Below, piece by piece: positions 1 to 21,916 of a stretch of 22,264 nt of DNA (position 1 is the stretch's first letter; each line of letters opens with the position of its first letter). Made by a program: the position numbers and the translations under genes. Below the pieces are notes generated by a model that ran no database searches, was not told where the DNA came from, and was given only the letters and a program-made list of their open reading frames with translations. Origin of the DNA: Neolecta irregularis DAH-3 (Eukaryota > Ascomycota > Neolectomycetes > Neolectales > Neolectaceae); contig LXFE01000511.1 of NCBI GenBank assembly GCA_001929475.1, positions 1 through 22,264 on the forward strand, given 5' to 3'.

Positions 1-1026
1 TCCGATCTAGGGGGCGGGAGGGCGGCAGGGGGGGCCGCACCTATGAGGCGGCGGATGCCGGGGGAGTAGGCGGGCAGGGCGGGGAAGGCGTAGGCGGCGT
101 TGAGGACGGCGAGGGGGCCGTGGGCCTCGAAGGGGGTTGTGTAGTAGCACAGCTTGTAGAGCAGGACGCCGAGGGCCCAGATGTCTTTGGGGGGTCAGCG
201 GGGGCCGCGGGCGGGGAGGGCGGCGGCACCGGACTTTTCGCCGATGGGCAGGCGGCGGTAGACGTCTGTCATTTCGGGGGAGCGGTACTGCAGCGTGGTG
301 TGCTGCTGGATGTCGCGCTCGAGGGCGGCGCAGGCGGCGCGCGAGGCGGGCGCGGGCGTGGGCGGCGCGCAGGAGCCAAAGTCGCACAGCTTGTAGCAGG
401 CGGGCGGCTGGAGCAGCACGTTCTCGATCTGCGGCGGGTGAGCGCGCGCGGCAGATCGGAGGCGCAACCTTGAGATCGCGGTGCACGAGCGGCGGCGCCA
501 GGTAGTGCATGCAGGCGACGGCGCGCACGACGTCGCTGAAGATGGCGAGGATCTCGCGCTCCGAGAGCCGCGCGTGCAGGCGCGCGTTCATCAGGTCGAT
601 CAGCGCGCCGCCGACGCAGTGCTCCATCAGCACAAACACCTCGTAGCCGCCGCCCCGGAGGTGCGCCGCGTGCGAGTCGATGTACGCGACGACGTGGCGG
701 TGGCCGCGCAGCAGTTTCCGCGCCCGTCAGCACCCGCCGCCCAGCCCCGGGTCAGGTACCATGGTCTGCACCTCGGTGCGCACCGTCGCCAGCGCCTGCT
801 TGTCCGGCGCCGCGACCCGCTTCAGCACCGCCGCCCCGCCGCCGCCGTCCAGCGACACGAGGTAGACGTGCGACGACCCGCCTGCCCGTCAGCCGCCGCC
901 GCCCGGCCAGCACTCACCCTCAGACAGGAACTGGTCGATGCACACGCGGTGCGAGCCGACCGTGATCAGCGTGCCTGGCGGGAACGTGCCCGGCGGAGCA
1001 GGCGGGCGGGCGGCAGCGACATCCAT
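1..1026 (-). CDS. Ark1/Prk1/AAK1-type (NAK family) Ser/Thr kinase, 5' part, runs off the left edge
   Basis: About 277 residues are visible. Exons: 918-1026, 760-881, 469-720 (or 717), 230-428, 41-184 and 1-6, separated by introns of 34-45 nt. Seen motifs: glycine loop [12 protein letters not shown], the VAIK-type lysine in VLKRV, catalytic loop HRDLKIENVLL, Mg-binding DFG in KLCDFGSC, and activation segment [14 protein letters not shown], which is typical of this family. The [20 protein letters not shown] block also fits. The family phosphorylates endocytic adaptors and controls cortical actin and clathrin uptake. The start ATG at 1026 is chosen because MDVAAARPP leads directly into the N-lobe ([16 protein letters not shown]). 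Codons are extremely GC-rich compared with the genes to the right, yet intron grammar is the same (CTGAC close to the acceptor). The second intron has no AG acceptor (see findings). The family is certain from the motifs; the orthologue is not. Confidence 0.9.
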
Positions 1027-1137: not shown

Positions 1138-3103
1138 CTATGCCCCTGTTGCCCACCCTGCGTCGTCGCTCGCTGTCCGCCGCCGCACCCGGAAAAACTC
1201 CAGCCCGCTCTCCACAGAATTCCAGAGCCGCTCCGCAGACTCAGACAGCCGCTGGCCCACAGTCGCGTCCCCCGCCCCCGCGCTGCTCTCCTCCACTTCT
1301 TCCCGCGCCAAACACCGCCCTGCGAGCATCCCGCTCTCGTCCCACCCCCCTGTCAGTGCTGCCGCGTTACTCATCGTCGCCCAGCCACATACCGCGCTCT
1401 ATCAACGCCCTCCCCTCAAAAGCCCCCTCCGCCGCATCCTCCTCGTCAACCCACTGGCTCAACCCAAACATCGTTTTCGCTCGGTCATAAAGATTCAACA
1501 ACGTCGCTAGCACGGGAACCAATATCGCAAGCGGGAACCAGCTATTCAACCCAGCCCCCAGAGCCGTCAGGTTGACGCTAGATCCAAAAAACTTCTCAAA
1601 CACACTGCTAGACCCCGGCGCAAGAAGCGTGTTGTAATTATAGCTTAGAGGGAACCTGCCCCATCAGCCCCATCCACAAACAAGTCTTCACGTCAACCGG
1701 CACAGGTACGATGCAAAGAAAATCAGTGATGGGGGGTCCGTGTGGTGATTCGGAACTAGTGCAAACAGGTTGAACACTTGCAGCCTGAGCAGTGTCGTAT
1801 AAGTGCACACGGCCATATACGTCAGGATTGCAACCGAGATCAGCTATTTTGTTCAGCAGAGGATCTCGACAAAAGTACCTCCACAAGCGCCCATTTTGGG
1901 CCCGCCCCACGAACAACGATCCCCACAATGCTGATCAAAGGGTGCTTGGCATTGATAAAGATTTCAGAAAAGACAATAATGGCAGATAACATCCCTAGAA
2001 GCACTGCGGTGACGCGTTTGGCTAAAGGAACCACATTAACGTAAAAGTGATATGCAGCACGAGGCGAAAATAGCCCACTTCTCGCAGTGTTAAATCGTAT
2101 CACCAATTCGCCCTTGGATGATGTTCCCGCGTCCATCACATCCTGAATAAATGTAGCTACACGGATCAACGACCCCCATTCACTGCCCGTCAAATTCATT
2201 TCCATATAAAATACATACCTAGTGTACCGTTCCTTCTTCCGAGCAGCAGACCTGACCCTCCTTGTTAAACTCGCAAGATATTCATCATCCACTCGGTCGA
2301 GCGGTATCGGGCTTCGATTGGACCCCCGATGCTCTTGTGCCGATGGACACATTGCAATCAATTCCTTCACCCAGGCTTTGTGTTCACCAAACACTTTATG
2401 TTCCAAAGCAGAAACCTCTGCCCCGACTTCAGCTAGTGTCTCTGAGGCTTCTTCCTTGGCATCCCAGACTATAACAGCACGACGTTCTAGGTCCCGTAAC
2501 TGATACTGCCGCGAAGCGGAATACCACAGCCTTCGTGGGATATTGACGAGACCGTGGCCCATCAGCATGATTACAATGACCAGACCCCATGAATTGGCTA
2601 GTGCAATGATCGTTGATTTGATTGCAGCTCTACCACTTTAAAATAGATCGAGCAACAGCATACGCCGATGAAACCTTGGTAGATGCCAGTATGTAGACAA
2701 GAACCGAACTCGAAATCACAAGGCCAATGATCTGGTTACGAAGATTGGTGAGGAGCGCGCTCTTGAGACGTTTCCAGGGAGCCCGATGACCACTGTCGAC
2801 ATAATTCTGCATGTTTGGAAACACAAACCAAGTGAAAACAGCACAAGTCCACCAGGTCGTTCGCCAAACGACGACAAGCACATTCTCGGGAATGAAAAAA
2901 AGGGGCCGTTGGTTCTTGGTGCTAGAAGTTGATGCGAGATCGAATGGAAAAAGTAACACCACGGAGAACGGAATAAACCATCCTATAAACACAGCTGCAG
3001 GGACATACGCCGGTAAACTGCGCGGCCGAGAGTAGAATGAAAGCAGACCTGCCACAAGACAGCCCACCAATGCAAAGGCAAATACAGTCGGCAGCCAGAC
3101 CAT
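1138..3103 (-). CDS. LMBR1-family nine-helix membrane protein (LMBRD2-like)
   Basis: Reconstructed exons are 2664-3103, 2219-2629, 1879-2182, 1692-1843, 1393-1655 and 1138-1349. They join in phase to 593 residues, with introns of 34-43 nt. Five N-terminal helices include the family landmark LLFPFDLAS near residue 50. A cytosolic helical segment (DLERRAVIVWDAKEEASETL) follows, then further helices containing YMAVCTYTTLLRLQVFNL and PPSLIFFASYLCRLTFPLSY. The last helix lies in LNSWFPLAILVPVLATLLNL. The C-terminal tail is charged and Ser-rich. LMBRD2 proteins are poorly understood plasma-membrane or endosomal proteins; in animals one is tied to beta2-adrenergic receptor signalling. The start is the first ATG before helix 1. 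The gene diverges from QCR8 over a 217-nt spacer. The last exon rises in GC content towards the GC-rich left end. Confidence 0.88.
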
Positions 3104-3320
3104 CGAGTTGCGGGGATCAACTTGCCGGTGTCGTAATCTCCGATAAGCCCCAGAACATGATTCATCATACCATAAAATAATACATAGAATGTGACTACTT
3201 TGATAGTATAAAAGCTTTCAAGCACTTGTGCTTCATAAAAATGTGACGGTGGATGTGGGATTGGTCTCACTTGTTCTCGGATTGACATCAAACTCTTTCA
3301 TAAACATCAAATATACACTT
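3104..3320. promoter_or_regulatory. Divergent promoter spacer, LMBR1-family gene / QCR8
   Basis: A 217-nt spacer lies between two divergent start codons and must hold both promoters. An open frame crosses it on the minus strand from 3291 but has no recognisable similarity and is not needed by the gene model. I see no clear TATA box. Confidence 0.5.
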
Positions 3321-3768
3321 ATGGGCGGTGCCGAAGTACCTTCATGGAGTATGTTCTTCTCTCTTGCACAAGTCATCTAACCAACAGTGGTCTTGTAATC
3401 TTCCTTGTCTGTTCTAATTCGTCCAGGGCTGGTGGGGCAGTTTTAAAGGCCGTAAACAGAGTTTGTACTAGTTTCACTGCCCTCACTGACTGCTTCAGGG
3501 GGAATTACTACCTACACTTTGTCTCCCTTTGCTGCTCGTCCGTTTGCAGGAGCTCTTCACGCCGCCATTTTCAATACCGCCCGGCGAACCAGAGGACAGC
3601 TCTTCTACGTTGCACCGCCATTTATCGCAGGCTATTTTGTCTGGGACTGGGCCAAGAAAAGGTTGAATTTAATTAATCCCTCGGATTCTCATCTTTAGAA
3701 ATGCGTACTTGAATTCCAAAGCTGGACATCAAGAGGCACAAGCACAAGAAGAAGCTTTACGAGGTTAG
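3321..3768 (+). CDS. QCR8: Cytochrome bc1 complex subunit 8 (Qcr8)
   Basis: Small subunit of respiratory complex III in the inner mitochondrial membrane. The preferred model joins 3321-3348, a 2-nt exon 3388-3389, 3427-3460, 3499-3661 and 3699-3768 to give 98 residues; the family is about 94-110. Seen: the N-terminal MGWWGSFKGRKQRGITTY block and SPFAARPFAGALHAAIFNT. A single membrane segment in FYVAPPFIAGYFVWDWAKKR and the C-terminal NAYLNSKAGHQE typical of fungal Qcr8 follow. The two introns around the 2-nt exon are 39 and 37 nt, the standard size here, and the TG they leave restores the family MGWWG motif. The alternative is one 91-nt intron (3336-3426) that loses residues. The last intron (3662-3698) is certain because reading through it would replace the conserved C-terminus. 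Confidence 0.9.
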
Positions 3769-3923: not shown

Positions 3924-5956
3924 ATGGCTTATATCGGCGTGACCAATCTCCGCCGTAGCAAGGTTATCAATGAACATCGACATTCGAGCAGCCCAAGCGG
4001 ATGTCCTTCCAAACCCTACTCGTTTACCAAGAGTAGATATGAAATCTGATCCTTTGTCAGAGCGCAGCTGTGACTATGTTTCTGCGAAACCATTAAAGGT
4101 AAAATTACTGATTCGCGGATTAACAACTCCGAGATCCAGCCTGTGCAGATACATACACATGGCCAATCATTTTTGGGAAGTCTGAAAATGACTCCAAATC
4201 ATCTCATATTTCAATCGACTGCACGCGATCTGTGGTATCCATATCCGATCGTGAATACTGTGGAAAGGCGGATACCGTCGGCAGATGGCTCTCAGAGTGC
4301 TCTCAGATTTCGGAATAGAGATTTTAGCTCTATAACGCTTTTCTTTTCGTCAAGGTCCGATTGTGATTATGTATTTGAGCATATCATGGGTCACACTTGT
4401 ATCAGTATGTTCCTGAAGATTATAGGTTAATATCAAGCATCCGTTCTCTGTTTATATGCATTTTCTTACAAGCCTGGCCTCTTGGAGTCCTCGCTTAATT
4501 CGTGGTCCCTGTATGACCCTCGGAAAGAGTTTATACGTCTCGGTGTGAATACGAGAACAAAAGAATGGAGATTTACAAATGTGAATATGAATTTCGAGGT
4601 ATCCCCAGATCATATCAACGGCCTCACGCCTAGAGATGCCCAACCTATCCAGAGCTACTTGTTGTTCCTTCCAAGATCAGTGACAATACTCTGAATTATG
4701 GTTACAAATATCGATCAAAGGGTCGAATTCCTGCACTGACATATATACACACATTGAACAATGTATCAAATCTTCTAGTCGTCAGATTACTGAATCACAG
4801 TGTACAATAACTCGATCGTCTCAACCCTTGGTGGGGATAAAGCAGAACAGATCAATTCAAGACGAGAAGCTGCTGGAAGCTATCTTTGCTACAACACATC
4901 CAGATGGCGTATATGGTTCGCAAGCTAACAACCTCATTATCGATGCTAGGCCAACCAAGAATGCCTTCGCCAATGTAGCTATCGGAGCCGGCACAGAGGA
5001 TATGAATAATTACAAGAACGCACATAAAGCATACCTTGGCATTGACAATATTCATGTTATGAGAGATTCACTCGCAAAAGTTGTCGAAGGTTCAACCAAT
5101 ATCTTGTCATATATGCTAATTTAATAGCCATCAAGGATTCTGATCTCGTTCCCCTCCCTCCAAACCGTGAATTGCTAGCCAAATCTGGTTGGTTGAAGCA
5201 TATTTCAGCAATCATTGATGGCTCTCTTCTTATCACCAGGACGATTCACATCCAACATTCTTCAGTCCTAGTACATTGTTCTGATGGTTGGTCCGTCTTC
5301 TGTACCGATGATATGCAAGCTGACATGCTAGGGATCGTACTAGTCAGTTATCGGCTATTTCACAACTATGTCTCGATCCGTATTATCGGACCGTGGAAGG
5401 ATTTATGATCCTCGTGGAAAAGGATTGGATGTCTTTTGGTCATCGATTTGCAGATAGATGTGATCATCTTACATCAGAAAAGGCCTTCTACACTACCGAT
5501 GGTGGAAATTCAACTCTTGCCTCGATGATAATCAAACCGTTTTTTGGGACCAAAGAAAGCTCACCCGTGTTTCACCAATTCCTAGATTGTACCGAGCAAA
5601 TTCGCCAACAGTTTCCAAATCGATTCGAATTCAATGGGCGGTTTCTGAAGCGTATTTTATATCACTTGTATTCTTGCCAATACGGCAATTTTATATCAAA
5701 CAGCGAGAAACAGCGATGCGAACATCGCGTTAGAGAAAACACAAGGTCTTTGTGGGATTATTTCCTGACTAGAAGATCTGATTTTGTTAACGAGTGTTAT
5801 AATCCTGCTTTAGATCTTCCCGGGGATACAGTTCTTTTGCCTGACCCAAAACATGTGCAGTGGTGGTCAGATGTATTCGGAAGAACAGACGAAGAAATGA
5901 ATTCTGGCCTTTCAAAAGGTGAAATCCTAGGGGTCGGTGTTGACTTTATTAAATAG
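3924..5956 (+). CDS. YMR1: Myotubularin-family phosphoinositide 3-phosphatase (Ymr1-like)
   Basis: It removes the 3-phosphate of PI3P or PI(3,5)P2 on endosomal and vacuolar membranes. Firm exons are 4140-4404, 4438-4598, 4634-4762, 4801-5089, 5128-5290 and 5332-5956, with introns of 33-41 nt. Seen: N-terminal GRAM/PH segment (LGSLKMTPNHLIFQS, then DLWYPYPIVNTVERR), NSWSLYDPRKEF, and YRSKGRIPALTYIH. The active site is VLVHCSDGWDRTSQLSA, the Cx5R signature, and is split by the intron 5291-5331. Then come GFMILVEKDWMSFGHRF, SPVFHQFLDC and FPNRFEFN. The 5' end is uncertain. MAYIGVTNLRRSK at 3924 resembles other myotubularin N-termini and is the chosen start. It may join exon 4140 directly (intron 3963-4139) or through small exons 3998-4035 and 4071-4098. 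A start at 3970 spliced at 4098 is also possible. No C-terminal coiled coil or FYVE domain is present. Confidence 0.92.
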
Positions 5957-12857: not shown

Positions 12858-14471
12858 TTACTTTTTGCCTGATGCTTTTTGAGCAGATTTGGTAACCTTC
12901 CCAGCAACTTTATCTGCTTTGACAACCGACTTGACGACACCGACAGCAACAGTCTGTGTGGGTTAACGAGCGGCAAACATGCAAGGATATATACTTGTCT
13001 CATATCCCGGACAGCAAATCGACCAAGAGGAGGATAGTCCGTGAACGCTTCACAACACATCGGCTTGGAGGGAACAAGCTTGGCAATGCATGCCTCTGTA
13101 GTCTTGACAGACAGAGGCTTTATTTCGAGTATTTTTCCACTTCGTCGATCGATCTTCTCAATGAGCTCGGCGAATTTGCAAGCAATGTGGCAGGTATGGC
13201 AGTCGAGAACTGGCGCATACCCGACACTAATTTGACCTGGGTGATTGAGAATAATGACTTGGGCATTGAAAGATTCAACTGACTTGGGTGGATCGATCTT
13301 GGCCTCTCCGCAAACATATCCACGTCGAAGATCCTGTACTGCAACGTTCTTAATGTTAAATCCAACGTTGTCGCCTGGTACGGCTTTAGCAAGTTGCTCA
13401 TGGTGCATTTCTACTGATTTGACTTCAGTGGTGATGCCAGATGGTGCAAAAGTGACAATCATACCGGCGCTGATACAACCACTTAAAAAATCAATCAAGT
13501 CTGACAGAGAAAAGTTACGATTCGACTCTGCCGACGGGAACAGTTCCAATACCACCAATCTTGTACACGTCTTGAAGAGGCAATCGAAGAGGTTTTTCGA
13601 CAGCTCGAATGGGTACTTCAAAAGCATCGATGGCATCGATAAGAGTCATGCCGGTGATTGTATTACCACTCGAGGTTTCCTTTTTCCAGCCAGTGTACCA
13701 AGGCATGTTTTTTGAAGGCTGTACCATGTTGTCACCCTGCCATCCCGAAATAGGGACAAAACAGACTTTTTTAATTGGATATCCGACTGACTGGATCAGT
13801 GACAAGAAAAGATAATTGTTGTACCCTTCTTGACGAAGTGGCCGGTTTCTTTCACGATTTCTTCGAAACGAGCTTCAGAATAATTGACACTATCCATCTT
13901 GTTGACAGCAACAATGAGTTGTTTAACCCCAAGAGTGTAAGCAAGAAGAATATGCTCTTTGGTTTGTCCATTTTCAGCAAGACCGGCTTCGAAGCCGCCA
14001 ACAGATGCATCAACTATGAGGATAGCCGCATCGGCTTGCGATGTTCCTGTGGTATGTCAGACAGAAGGACTTATTTCCTGATACCAGTAATCATGTTCTT
14101 GATGAAATCTCGATGACCTGGAGCATCGATGACAGTTACAACGCACTTTGGGGTTTCGAATTTCCACAGAGCAATATCGATAGTGATACCACGTTCTCGT
14201 TCCGCCTTGAGTTTGTCAAGAACCCAGGCATACCTGGTTGGTAAGAACACTTGATATAAGGCAAAATATACTTGAAAGAACCCTTTCCAAGATCATTAGC
14301 TTCCTTCTCAAATTTCTCAATGACTCGCTTGTCGACACCACCACATTGCTGTCTTTTAGAGTACCGAAAACTGTGGGGACACACATAGATTAAATTCCCA
14401 GTTGATGTCGATTTCCCTGAATCGACATGACCGATTACTACAATGTTGATGTGAATTTTTTCTTTACCCAT
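12858..14471 (-). CDS. Diverged but intact EF-1alpha paralog
   Basis: Exons 14385-14471, 14272-14348, 14085-14233, 13825-14046, 13519-13786, 12995-13481 and 12858-12953 join to 461 residues, normal for eEF1A. GTPase motifs are intact: GHVDSGKS (G1), DAPGH (G3), NKMD (G4). Domains 2 and 3 are complete ([50 protein letters not shown]). All six introns occupy the same positions as in the copy at 20307. Divergent sites include [13 protein letters not shown] where the other copy has [33 protein letters not shown] and a rewritten segment [20 protein letters not shown] are also changed. Changes are scattered rather than disruptive, so it looks translated, not a pseudogene. It may be a condition-specific elongation factor or have another role. 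Confidence 0.9.
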
Positions 14472-14709: not shown

Positions 14710-17590
14710 TCAACCCAGTAGAGTCTTTGGAAATCCGGCAAAATCAATCTGTTCACTGACATCACCAATGGCATCTTTAAAGTACGTGATTTTCAGGCGT
14801 AACCGTATGTTTGCCTGCTATATCAGCTAAAAGTCGACAATCGGAATCGGTTACCCCCAGACCAGCCGTAATTCGCATCACTTGATTGGCCTCCTCTCCC
14901 CCTTTTAAAGTCGGAGCTGATATAGGTTGTAATTGAAGTTTTTGAGTTTTCGGAACCGCGGCTTGGAGACTGATCTTATCGATCGACGCAATGGGATCCT
15001 CATTCCGAAACCGAGCAGTGATGTCGACCACTCCGGGTGAATAAGAGTCACCTCGAACCGGTTGCAGGGTAATCTTGAACCCATTCTTGTGATACACAGT
15101 AAATTCCTCTACCCAATTAAATTCATTCCGAGACTGATATTACGGTAATTTGAACTGGAAGGGATTGCCCGTGATTGATCGGGTGAAAATGAAGCTCTAG
15201 GTGATCCATTACCATTACCGAAGAGCGCCATGATATCACCACTCTTGCTAGACTTTGAAGCATTATGTTGTCCAGAGTCTCCGAAAATATCGGACAGTAA
15301 ATCCGCATTCGCATGGCTATCGGCCGGTTTCGAATATGTAACATCGTTTATACCCATAAGATCAAGCAAAAGCTATCGAAATTAGACAATCAAGGAGGGG
15401 GATGTGCATACATCTTGACCGGCATTACTTTTTCTCAATTGTCCTCTAGTTTTCTTCGCCTGTGTACGGATTGCCGGACCAAGGACGCGACTGTCTTCAT
15501 GGATTTCCGGAGGAGGCATGCGCTCTAAAACACCGGTCCGTATACTATCGTGATCGAAAAGTTTACCGTATTCGACAGATCTTTGTTGGATTTCTATGTC
15601 AATACTGGTAGCGTAACGAGAAACGATTTCCCTAATTCGATTGATCAAAGACTTAGTGGTTATACGAGCAGTGAATTTCATCAAAGCTGTAATTGCGTAC
15701 TCCGAAACCGCCTGCGTTGCATAGTTTCCTGAAAGTATGGTCTCGAGGAGATCCACGACCTCGGATGGCTGCACCTCCGAGTTCAGCCGCAGTAGAAAAT
15801 GATTAGTTGAACATACTTGATTAGCAGGCTCTCCTTCGTCAAATTGTCCTTCCTGTAACAAGAAATCCCCAAATTCGCCGATGATCCAAGTTGCCGCAAG
15901 TGTTAGCCCTTCCTGAGTAACATCCTCTTTAACAGCAGAGAAAAGCTTGTGAACAGCATAACTTTGGAGTTCTGGAGCAGTTCCAATAAGTCGCAGAAAG
16001 CTTGACAAAATCTGTTCTTTGACATAATTACCGGCCTGGCAGATCAAGTCACTATGAACCTGAGGGGATTACCAATTTGAGAACCCGCAGTACAGTATCC
16101 ACGTGCCACCGTTTGTTCGGTGCAAATCGGTCAGCAGCAATGCAAATTTGTGTTGTCATAGTAGGTTTGAACTCATTGTTGGCAACTTCAAGGAAAGCTA
16201 GCAACTCTCGTATTAAAACCCGAACATTACTCTCGTTGATCAGAGCGAAAGATAAATCCAAAGCCCTTCGACGAATTGAGATATCGGGATCACGTAAACA
16301 TTCCAAAATTGTGTTCCGATGACGTTGGACGGCCGTTGGTTCAATTGTTATTACTTTGCTGAGAGTGTTGAGCGCAACATATCTAATGATAAGAGTAAAT
16401 TTGACAGTTGAGGATATGCCTAATATTGTTGTCACGATTGGCGAGGAATTTTCCTAGAATATTCACACCAAGAACGCGCAGACCGCTATCTGCTTCAATA
16501 TCCAGTATTGTTAAAACAGTCTCATATAGAATAGAATTTCCAACATTTTTAGAAGCGTCAGTATTAGAAGCGACCTGAAGTAAGAGGTCAGTTCGTGAAT
16601 TGATGCACCTGAGCCAATATGTCATTCATTTGCTCACTGACATCGGGATCTCCAGCACCCAGTACTCGTAGAAATCCCAAAATTTTCACTTGTAGGAATG
16701 GGTCTGAAATGCCTGTAACATCGTGCTCGGGTGAATAACCAGAGCTCGAGAGCTGCTTTAGCAGTTTGACTAGAGTCATTGTTTGCTACAACATCAGAGA
16801 GAAGTATATCATCAATGTAAAACACACATCCTTGTACTGATCAATGACTTCAGAGTCGTTCAAACATATGTCAGTCGCTAGTGTGATTCCACAAGCCAAA
16901 ACCCCATGATCCCGATCTGATAAGAGCTGCTTCGACTTTACAAGGAAGATGTCTTGCAAATCGGGCACTTTCCGTATGATCCGCATTGCACATAAAGCCG
17001 CCTTTACATATCAATATCCTTAAGCCAGAAGATTCGTTGGCTCTACCTTCCTGCGAATGTACGCGCTTGAGGACAACAGCCGAACTACTTCCTGACATAA
17101 ATCACGAGCCATTTCAGCAGACGAAATATTCGCCAAAGTGCATAATGCCAGTCCTACTACGTACATGTTCGCATGATTGAGATCGCTAGTGGTTGAGCAC
17201 GATTACGAGAACAAAGACCCAGTTACTTCTTTAAAGAATTGGTGACTAGAGTGAGAACTTCCTGGTTTTCATCGAGAAGCAACATAGTTCCGAGATAACC
17301 CAATCGTTTATCCGCGAATCTGGGACTAGCGAGTAGCTTGAGACATTCTATCTGGCCAAAGTGCGTACGCTCTCCTAGGGTAAAGAGATATAATAGTTTG
17401 GCGACGTTGTTGCGACGGTAGCTGGAATCGGACGACTCCTCGCGCAGTGATGCGCGAATTGCAGCAGACTCCTTTTGGACGACAGCACGTTCATCGGCAG
17501 CAGTCTACGCCGCAATCAGCGCTTTTGGTGGGGCAGAAGCAGCACCTTCGCAGCACGGACTTGTTTAATAAAAGCCTTGAGCGAACTCAT
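14710..17590 (-). CDS. APL4: AP-1 complex gamma-adaptin, large subunit
   Basis: Clathrin adaptor subunit acting at the trans-Golgi and endosomes. Twelve exons join in phase to 815 residues (family about 820-860). Introns: 17505-17545, 17186-17226, 17002-17046, 16786-16827, 16575-16608, 16383-16419, 16036-16072, 15775-15816, 15373-15411, 15109-15143 and 14815-14854. Seen: N-terminal [20 protein letters not shown], helical-repeat trunk ([60 protein letters not shown]), then a hinge with a clathrin-box-like LLLDLMG and Ser/Gly-rich linker. The C-terminal gamma-ear is [20 protein letters not shown] to [17 protein letters not shown]. The sixth intron is GC-AG (AG|GCATAT), needed to read [12 protein letters not shown]. 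The last intron extends the ear past an apparent stop at 14777. It lies upstream of the EF-1alpha paralog on the same strand and is divergent from the acyltransferase. Confidence 0.95.

Positions 17591-19808: not shown

Positions 19809-21916
<2,108 letters not shown>

Follow-up and report, generated by a model that had tools for sequence, protein, structure and literature searches.

A probable two-base exon between two very short introns near the start codon of QCR8 in the ascomycete Neolecta irregularis

How is the reading frame of QCR8 in Neolecta irregularis DAH-3, a member of the Taphrinomycotina, carried from a first exon ending TGG A into a downstream exon starting GGC TGG TGG, when a single intron between the two leaves the wrong frame? 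The gene occupies positions 3321-3768 (+) of contig LXFE01000511.1, the whole stretch of which (22,264 nucleotides) was analysed and is termed the window in the following. A previous sequence-only reading had placed the end of the first exon at 3348, a GTATGT donor at 3349 and the GGC TGG TGG at 3427, had noted that one intron from 3349 to 3426 breaks the frame and had proposed that two introns of 39 and 37 nt leave just TG between them and thereby restore the phase; coordinates and phases were all verified. We consider it probable, on the basis of the sequence, that two tandem ultra-short U2-type introns near the start codon flank a 2-nt exon, TG, which would complete a methionine codon (A plus TG) to give MGGAEVPSW-M-GWWG. 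QCR8 would accordingly be spliced from five exons (Table 1), which joined together encode a product of 98 aa.

Table 1. Elements of QCR8 and rival donors in the window, with the candidate two-base exon and its flanking introns as predicted
Feature	Positions	Strand	Remarks
Exon 1	3321..3348	+	ATG at 3321 to TGG A; encodes MGGAEVPSW and ends on base 1 of the following codon
Intron A, 39 nt	3349..3387	+	GTATGT...TCTAAC; ends CAACAG; AG 7 nt past the branch A
Branch-point-like TCTAAC, intron A	3376..3381	+	
Putative two-base exon TG	3388..3389	+	placed by frame and homology; A3348+TG would be the ATG (Met) of WMGWWG
Intron B, 37 nt	3390..3426	+	GTCTTG...TCTAAT; ends CCAG; AG 9 nt past the branch A; weak donor
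Branch-point-like TCTAAT, intron B	3413..3418	+	
Exon 3	3427..3460	+	starts GGC TGG TGG; GWWGSFKGRKQ plus one base
Intron C, 38 nt	3461..3498	+	GTTTGT donor
Exon 4	3499..3661	+	GITTYTLSPF...WAKKR, final codon split
Intron D, 37 nt	3662..3698	+	GTTGAA donor, weak, forced by homology
Exon 5 and stop codon	3699..3768	+	
Rival in-frame donor GTACCT	3336..3341	+	91-nt single intron, or 52-nt external intron after A has gone
Rival donor GTGGTC	3387..3392	+	shares its first base with the final G of intron A; used in the [A2,3] stwintron parse

The product with the two-base exon matches the Pfam family UcrQ (PF02939) with an E-value of 7.4e-37 and 125.6 bits at a cut-off of 25.2, and the product with EGWWG at the junction scores about the same (125.8 bits), so that the Pfam match does not choose between the readings. 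QCR8 is the sole clear copy in the genome searched (8.96 Mb in 363 contigs, the window being contig C31), as of the three matches up to an E-value of 10, two correspond to exons of the gene itself and the remaining one is weak (E 0.026). Among database proteins of about 54-171 aa no identical Qcr8 was found (27 matches, the best at 70 per cent, none named Neolecta), nor among those of 167-530 aa, where none of 30 candidates reached an E-value of 0.001; both searches depend on shared exact words and do not prove absence. As no identical Neolecta Qcr8 was recovered among the database proteins, QCR8 may be absent from the deposited Neolecta annotation or misbuilt therein.

With respect to the surroundings of the gene, 1840-3217 (-) matches an LMBR1-like membrane protein, 5324-5956 (+) a myotubularin-like phosphatase and 15382-16068 (-) an adaptin N-terminal region, while tRNA and Rfam searches of the window gave no match. 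The window also carries two EF1a genes, at 12864-14471 (-) and 20307-21913 (+), one of them clearly diverged, which have all six intron positions in common, with introns of 36-43 nt. Both contig ends (1-1000 and 22051-22264) have about 73 per cent G+C, whereas the intervening 1-kb blocks have 41-56 per cent, and an ORF at 7-726 (-) is protein-kinase-like with a score slightly below the Pfam cut-off. The contig start reads TCCGATCT, which is similar to the tail of an Illumina adapter. Of 14 other contig starts checked, those of L004, L008 and L019 are likewise G+C-rich (55-60 per cent); chimeric ends or compositional islands are possible explanations.

Introns of the N. irregularis genome served as the reference for scoring splice signals. 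A total of 63 introns was obtained from spliced alignments of 12 genes, the two EF1a genes being aligned to protein P0036 and ten others (actin, actin-related, beta-tubulin, GAPDH, three HSP70s, PGK, ATP synthase beta and RAN) to protein sequences entered by hand. Four uncertainly aligned introns were removed; of the remaining 59, one GC-AG intron was excluded from the matrices, leaving 58 GT-AG introns. These measure 33-55 nt with a median of 38 nt, none reaching 60 nt, have A (48), G (6), T (3) or C (1) at donor position +3 and carry a branch-point-like site approximating YTRAY. The lengths of introns A and B are thus of the standard size that had been ascribed to them, and both halves of 3349-3426 possess a branch-point-like site of their own, 7 or 9 nt before the end. 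The total score of intron A, 20.7 bits, exceeds that of 28 of the 58 reference introns, and the total score of intron B, 17.0 bits, exceeds that of 7 of them. The donor of intron B, GTCTTG, scores 0.5 bits in the model built on 58 introns, where two reference donors lie lower, and -1.7 in the first model built on 34 introns, where it falls under all reference donors. Set against the 58 homology-anchored introns, A is a typical intron and B, save for its weak donor, an acceptable one, and the TG is flanked on either side by a complete intron with donor, branch-point-like site and acceptor. Weak donors occur in two of the four QCR8 introns, B and D, the GTTGAA of the latter scoring 1.1 with 3 of 58 reference donors below. 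Apparent GC-AG introns were seen elsewhere in the genome in actin (L022; GCATCT...GAAG, 38 nt, by eye) and PGK (L028; GCATGC...ATAG, 34 nt).

The path with the two-base exon has the top splice score among eight in-frame, non-nested paths of one or two introns, at 37.6 in the 58-intron model (next 30.0) and 36.5 in the 34-intron model (next 29.2; 91-nt single intron 11.9). In the 58-intron model, the single introns of 91 and 55 nt reach 12.6 and 11.0, respectively, and the out-of-frame one of 78 nt reaches 13.8. Parses in which one intron is nested in another are level with this path in the 58-intron model, at 37.2 for an [A2,3] stwintron and 37.9 for a donor at 3336 with intron A inside, and both lie above it in the 34-intron model (37.7 and 39.3, respectively). 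The signals consequently favour the loss of two short introns rather than any one junction.

Several further paths were discarded. A 7-nt exon between introns 3353-3387 and 3395-3426 (SWSIGLGWWG) reaches 30.0 on signals against 37.6, with a protein score of 129.7 against 132.3 bits, and introns 3328-3387 plus 3390-3426 (MGVGWWG) reach 22.0 against 36.5, with 127.4 bits for the protein. GC donors at 3325, 3330 and 3366, the latter two providing in-frame single-intron solutions, are poor, and an in-frame single intron of 55 nt from the donor GTCATC at 3372 scores below all 58 reference introns. A 78-nt intron combined with a start in another frame fails, since the stretch from the preceding in-frame stop to the junction contains no ATG.

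How often chance produces such an arrangement was assessed in shuffled and in real sequence. When 3342-3409 was shuffled 10,000 times with its dinucleotides preserved, an intron of at least the quality of A arose 132 times, a two-intron path in frame and equal or superior in score to the observed one 47 times, and such a path with an aromatic residue or His plus [MLIV] before GWWG four times, which places the arrangement above chance expectation; the earlier shuffles with the 34-intron model (threshold 36.4) gave 21 introns, 32 paths and no path with the motif, each per 4,000. Real sequence from 17 loci provided 281 GT..AG pairs with good outer sites at a spacing of 70-95 nt; two of these could be divided as well as the QCR8 stretch and ten to within 4 bits of it, with an exon of 1-12 nt allowed between and the frame not required. 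A scan of 184 kb for back-to-back intron motifs revealed no excess, with 105 pairs in the real and 210 in the reversed sequence. Among the best 25 pairs listed, 19 in the real and 3 in the reversed sequence had at least one joined frame without a stop; this difference may reflect mere coding sequence, as some lie inside EF1a exons. At L017:3190-3273 (+), two good intron-like stretches lie 6 nt apart with an open joined frame, possibly another micro-exon. Detection of introns by codon usage and motif without homology, over 204 kb, was dropped as too weak.

While the splice signals do not pick the junction, the fit of the protein to its relatives does, and it picks the junction with the two-base exon. 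Seven sequences, six products and the bare tail, were scored on profiles of 23 fungal Qcr8 proteins (wide), of five proteins of the MGWWG type (narrow) and of 18 database sequences without Mycotypha. The product with the two-base exon comes first on the 23-sequence profile with 132.3 bits (7-nt exon 129.7, MGVGWWG 127.4, EGWWG 126.1, WSWWG 123.8), on the five-sequence profile with 118.2 bits (7-nt exon 112.8, EGWWG 110.8, WSWWG 108.3) and on the 18-sequence profile with 123.2 bits (7-nt exon 121.5, EGWWG 118.4, WSWWG 116.8). In the alignment, 19 of 27 relatives carry aromatic-[ILMV]-G-x-[WY]G, either in plain form or in a version differing by one residue, two of them with an extra residue and two with YG; of the remaining relatives, P0001 begins at the Met and seven of the 27 lack the motif or have it altered. 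Among 23 PDB sequences matched, all five fungal chains shown, two of them from yeast, carry Y-[ML]-G-W-W-G, while the alignments of the other 18 start no earlier than query residue 20 or 21 and are silent on the motif. Closest in form to the Neolecta MGGAEVPSWMGWWG are yeast PSGKTYMGWWG, PDB chain 8q1b GGAAGGKTYLGWWG, which we take to be S. pombe, and Mycotypha MGGPEGKAYMGWWG; GGA at residues 2-4 of the Neolecta protein is also present in chain 8q1b. Among the readings enumerated, the product with the two-base exon alone agrees with the fungal aromatic-[MLIV]-G-(x)-W-G and is the only in-frame one with W-M-G, in line with the earlier proposal that SWMGWWG contains the MGWWG motif of yeast Qcr8. 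A random insert of five codons fits as well in 25 of 3,000 cases on the wide and in 166 of 3,000 cases (about 5.5 per cent) on the narrow profile, which makes the protein argument good, not overwhelming.

The alternatives differ in where they place the junction and in how many introns are lost. Intron A could be internal to an external intron 3336-3426, a stwintron sensu lato, with VPSW becoming intronic and the protein reading MGGAE-GWWG. Apart from a splice score level with or above that of the two-base exon, this arrangement offers a donor, GTACCT, of 5.6 bits in place of the 0.5 bits of GTCTTG, and a comparable arrangement is described in Lipomyces suomiensis (PMC7138796); on the other hand, its protein scores 4.8-7.4 bits worse on the three profiles, it loses the aromatic-[MLIV] pair found in 19 of 27 relatives and in the five PDB chains shown, and its external intron, at 52 nt after removal of A, is longer than 57 of the 58 reference introns. 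We judge it unlikely, if the most probable of the rivals. The same donor could also serve one ordinary intron of 91 nt in phase 0 with the same protein, an alternative already named in the earlier reading. Such a splice keeps the frame in the fewest events, with a good donor (5.6) and a good acceptor (5.8), but its length lies far from a reference set in which no intron attains 60 nt, it shares the poorer protein fit of 4.8-7.4 bits and it leaves the complete intron A, matched in only 132 of the 10,000 shuffles, unexplained, making it very unlikely. Either use of the 3336 donor predicts the junction GGTGCCGAAGGCTGGTGGGG, and the nested one would be at odds with a coding mRNA containing GTACCTTCATGGATG.

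Removal of an internal intron 3387-3426 (GTGGTC...CCAG, 40 nt) ahead of an external one, whose acceptor would be composed of A3386 and G3427, would give WSWWG in frame and the junction CCTTCATGGAGCTGGTGGGG, at odds with an mRNA reading TTCATGGATGGGCTGG. The geometry agrees with the definition of an [A2,3] stwintron (PMC9024468), the downstream exon starts with the required G and the signals are close to or above those of the two-base exon. Yet WSWWG, devoid of Met and Gly, is the lowest of the seven sequences on all three profiles, 6.4-9.9 bits under the product with the two-base exon, and the weak GTGGTC would have to act ahead of the strong intron A; the probability of this reading is slight and ranks below that of the single long intron. 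A two-base assembly error near 3348 that masks an ordinary single 78-nt intron is the least probable of all: a single small indel would likewise restore the frame, but 78 nt would still lie outside the reference range, intron A is equipped with a branch-point-like site and an acceptor of its own, and the site of the supposed error is no homopolymer. Cumulatively, of the earlier proposal of a 2-nt micro-exon or stwintron, the micro-exon stands as the best reading by frame, intron size, branch-point-like sites and W-M-G, and TG is needed for the frame and for a conserved residue, the other in-frame readings yielding poorer proteins. The designation stwintron does not apply to it, as its two introns are complete and side by side and interrupt no splice element.

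For the two-base exon we infer that the spliceosome works by pairing the two ends of each intron and that intron A, because of its strong donor, is most likely spliced out first. It is plausible that A and B are removed sequentially, since both sites, 2 nt apart, are sterically unlikely to be recognised together. Splicing of A first would give an intermediate in which ...TCATGGATG is followed directly by GTCTTG..., predicted as TCATGGATGGTCTTGTAATC (B first, CTAACCAACAGTGGGCTGG), and would take along G3387, so that the rival GTGGTC donor is lost and TG kept. In this intermediate the acceptor at 3426 could be paired with GTCTTG (37 nt) or with GTACCT (52 nt), the choice of GTCTTG giving the conserved protein and a predicted mRNA junction CCTTCATGGATGGGCTGGTGGGG. 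A main mRNA joining CCTTCATGGA to GCTGGTGGGG, or GGTGCCGAA to GGCTGGTGGGG, would be at odds with the 2-nt exon. Retention of intron A leads to an in-frame stop (TAA, 3378-3380), as does intron B if kept once A has been removed (TAA, 3396-3398).

A rather improbable extension is that the order of splicing works as a ratchet, in which the loss of A at the first step abolishes the GTGGTC donor that overlaps it at G3387 and commits the transcript to the 2-nt exon, the order thus setting the N-terminus. Other orders or donors would lead to the in-frame N-termini WSWWG and EGWWG, and a retained intron to an early in-frame stop; if true, intron order would pick one of three Qcr8 N-termini and hence affect the level of complex III.

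If the two-base exon is real, a respiratory-chain gene of an early-branching, fruit-body-forming ascomycete relies on two bases between very short introns, which would put to the test the minimal gap from a 3' to the next 5' splice site and the sufficiency of intron definition alone. It could also account for the failure to find a Neolecta Qcr8 among the database proteins, and it argues for screening the out-of-phase junctions of compact fungal genomes for exons of less than 3 nt.

A search for wording on a 2-nt exon found no paper in the literature collection covered, and the main text of the Neolecta genome paper (PMC5309816) contains no words starting with 'intron', 'exon' or 'splic'. Within the same genome, RAN/GSP1 has a 12-nt exon, GTCTGAGAGATG, at C288:3990-4001 (-) between introns of 38 and 45 nt, which is forced by the highly conserved KFGGLRDGYYIQ encoded across it. 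Like TG in QCR8 it is a micro-exon between two short introns, and it demonstrates that tiny exons in this setting occur in N. irregularis, though 12 nt is far from 2; its donors, GTATGA before the exon and GTATTT behind it, belong to the common type, unlike GTCTTG.

A stwintron, as defined in the descriptions available, consists of an external intron and an internal one that disrupts a splice element of the former (PMC5639578; PMC7138796; PMC9024468), with the types [D1,2], [D2,3], [D5,6] and [A2,3] described (PMC5639578; PMC9024468). Two short U2 introns removed consecutively at one position would be common to stwintrons (PMC5639578; PMC9024468) and QCR8, but the favoured QCR8 introns are tandem and complete; only in the rival reading does G3387 belong both to the end of intron A and to the start of the alternative intron with the GTGGTC donor (AGT), in the [A2,3] geometry. 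The reticulon-like gene of Lipomyces, a stwintron sensu lato with nested U2 introns, neighbouring donors and the smallest intron out first, resembles the rival nested arrangement of QCR8 and not the favoured one, and its description, in the parts of the source drawn on here, includes no micro-exon (PMC7138796). Splice sites in Pezizomycotina are reported to pair by intron definition (PMC5639578), whereby the smallest possible intron is removed first (PMC7138796); missing exon definition need therefore not hinder a 2-nt exon.

The closest parallels to the two-base exon are other exons of less than 3 nt. Fusarium CYP621A P450 genes have a 1-nt exon, according to the abstract in 20 orthologues and with 18 SRA reads, which restores the frame inside a conserved motif, as proposed for QCR8, was recognised through an out-of-phase junction and an over-long intron and is mostly missed by gene models (PMC12940212). 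Exons of 2-5 nt in Arabidopsis, Drosophila and human are cited in the same source (PMC12940212). The plant genes APC11 and VPS55 each have a 1-nt exon between two introns, established by RNA-seq and sequencing of RT-PCR products and conserved over land plants, and overlooking such an exon alters the predicted protein (PMC8831610), as it would in QCR8. In contrast to the read-supported exon of CYP621A and the transcript-supported exons of the plant genes, the fungal QCR8 exon has 2 nt, is predicted from the sequence of one species and lies between introns shorter than those of CYP621A. As exons of 1 nt are already known in Fusarium and in plants, the QCR8 exon would not be a new class and would join a known one, in which TG, as predicted, seems to rank among the smallest exons inferred in any fungus.
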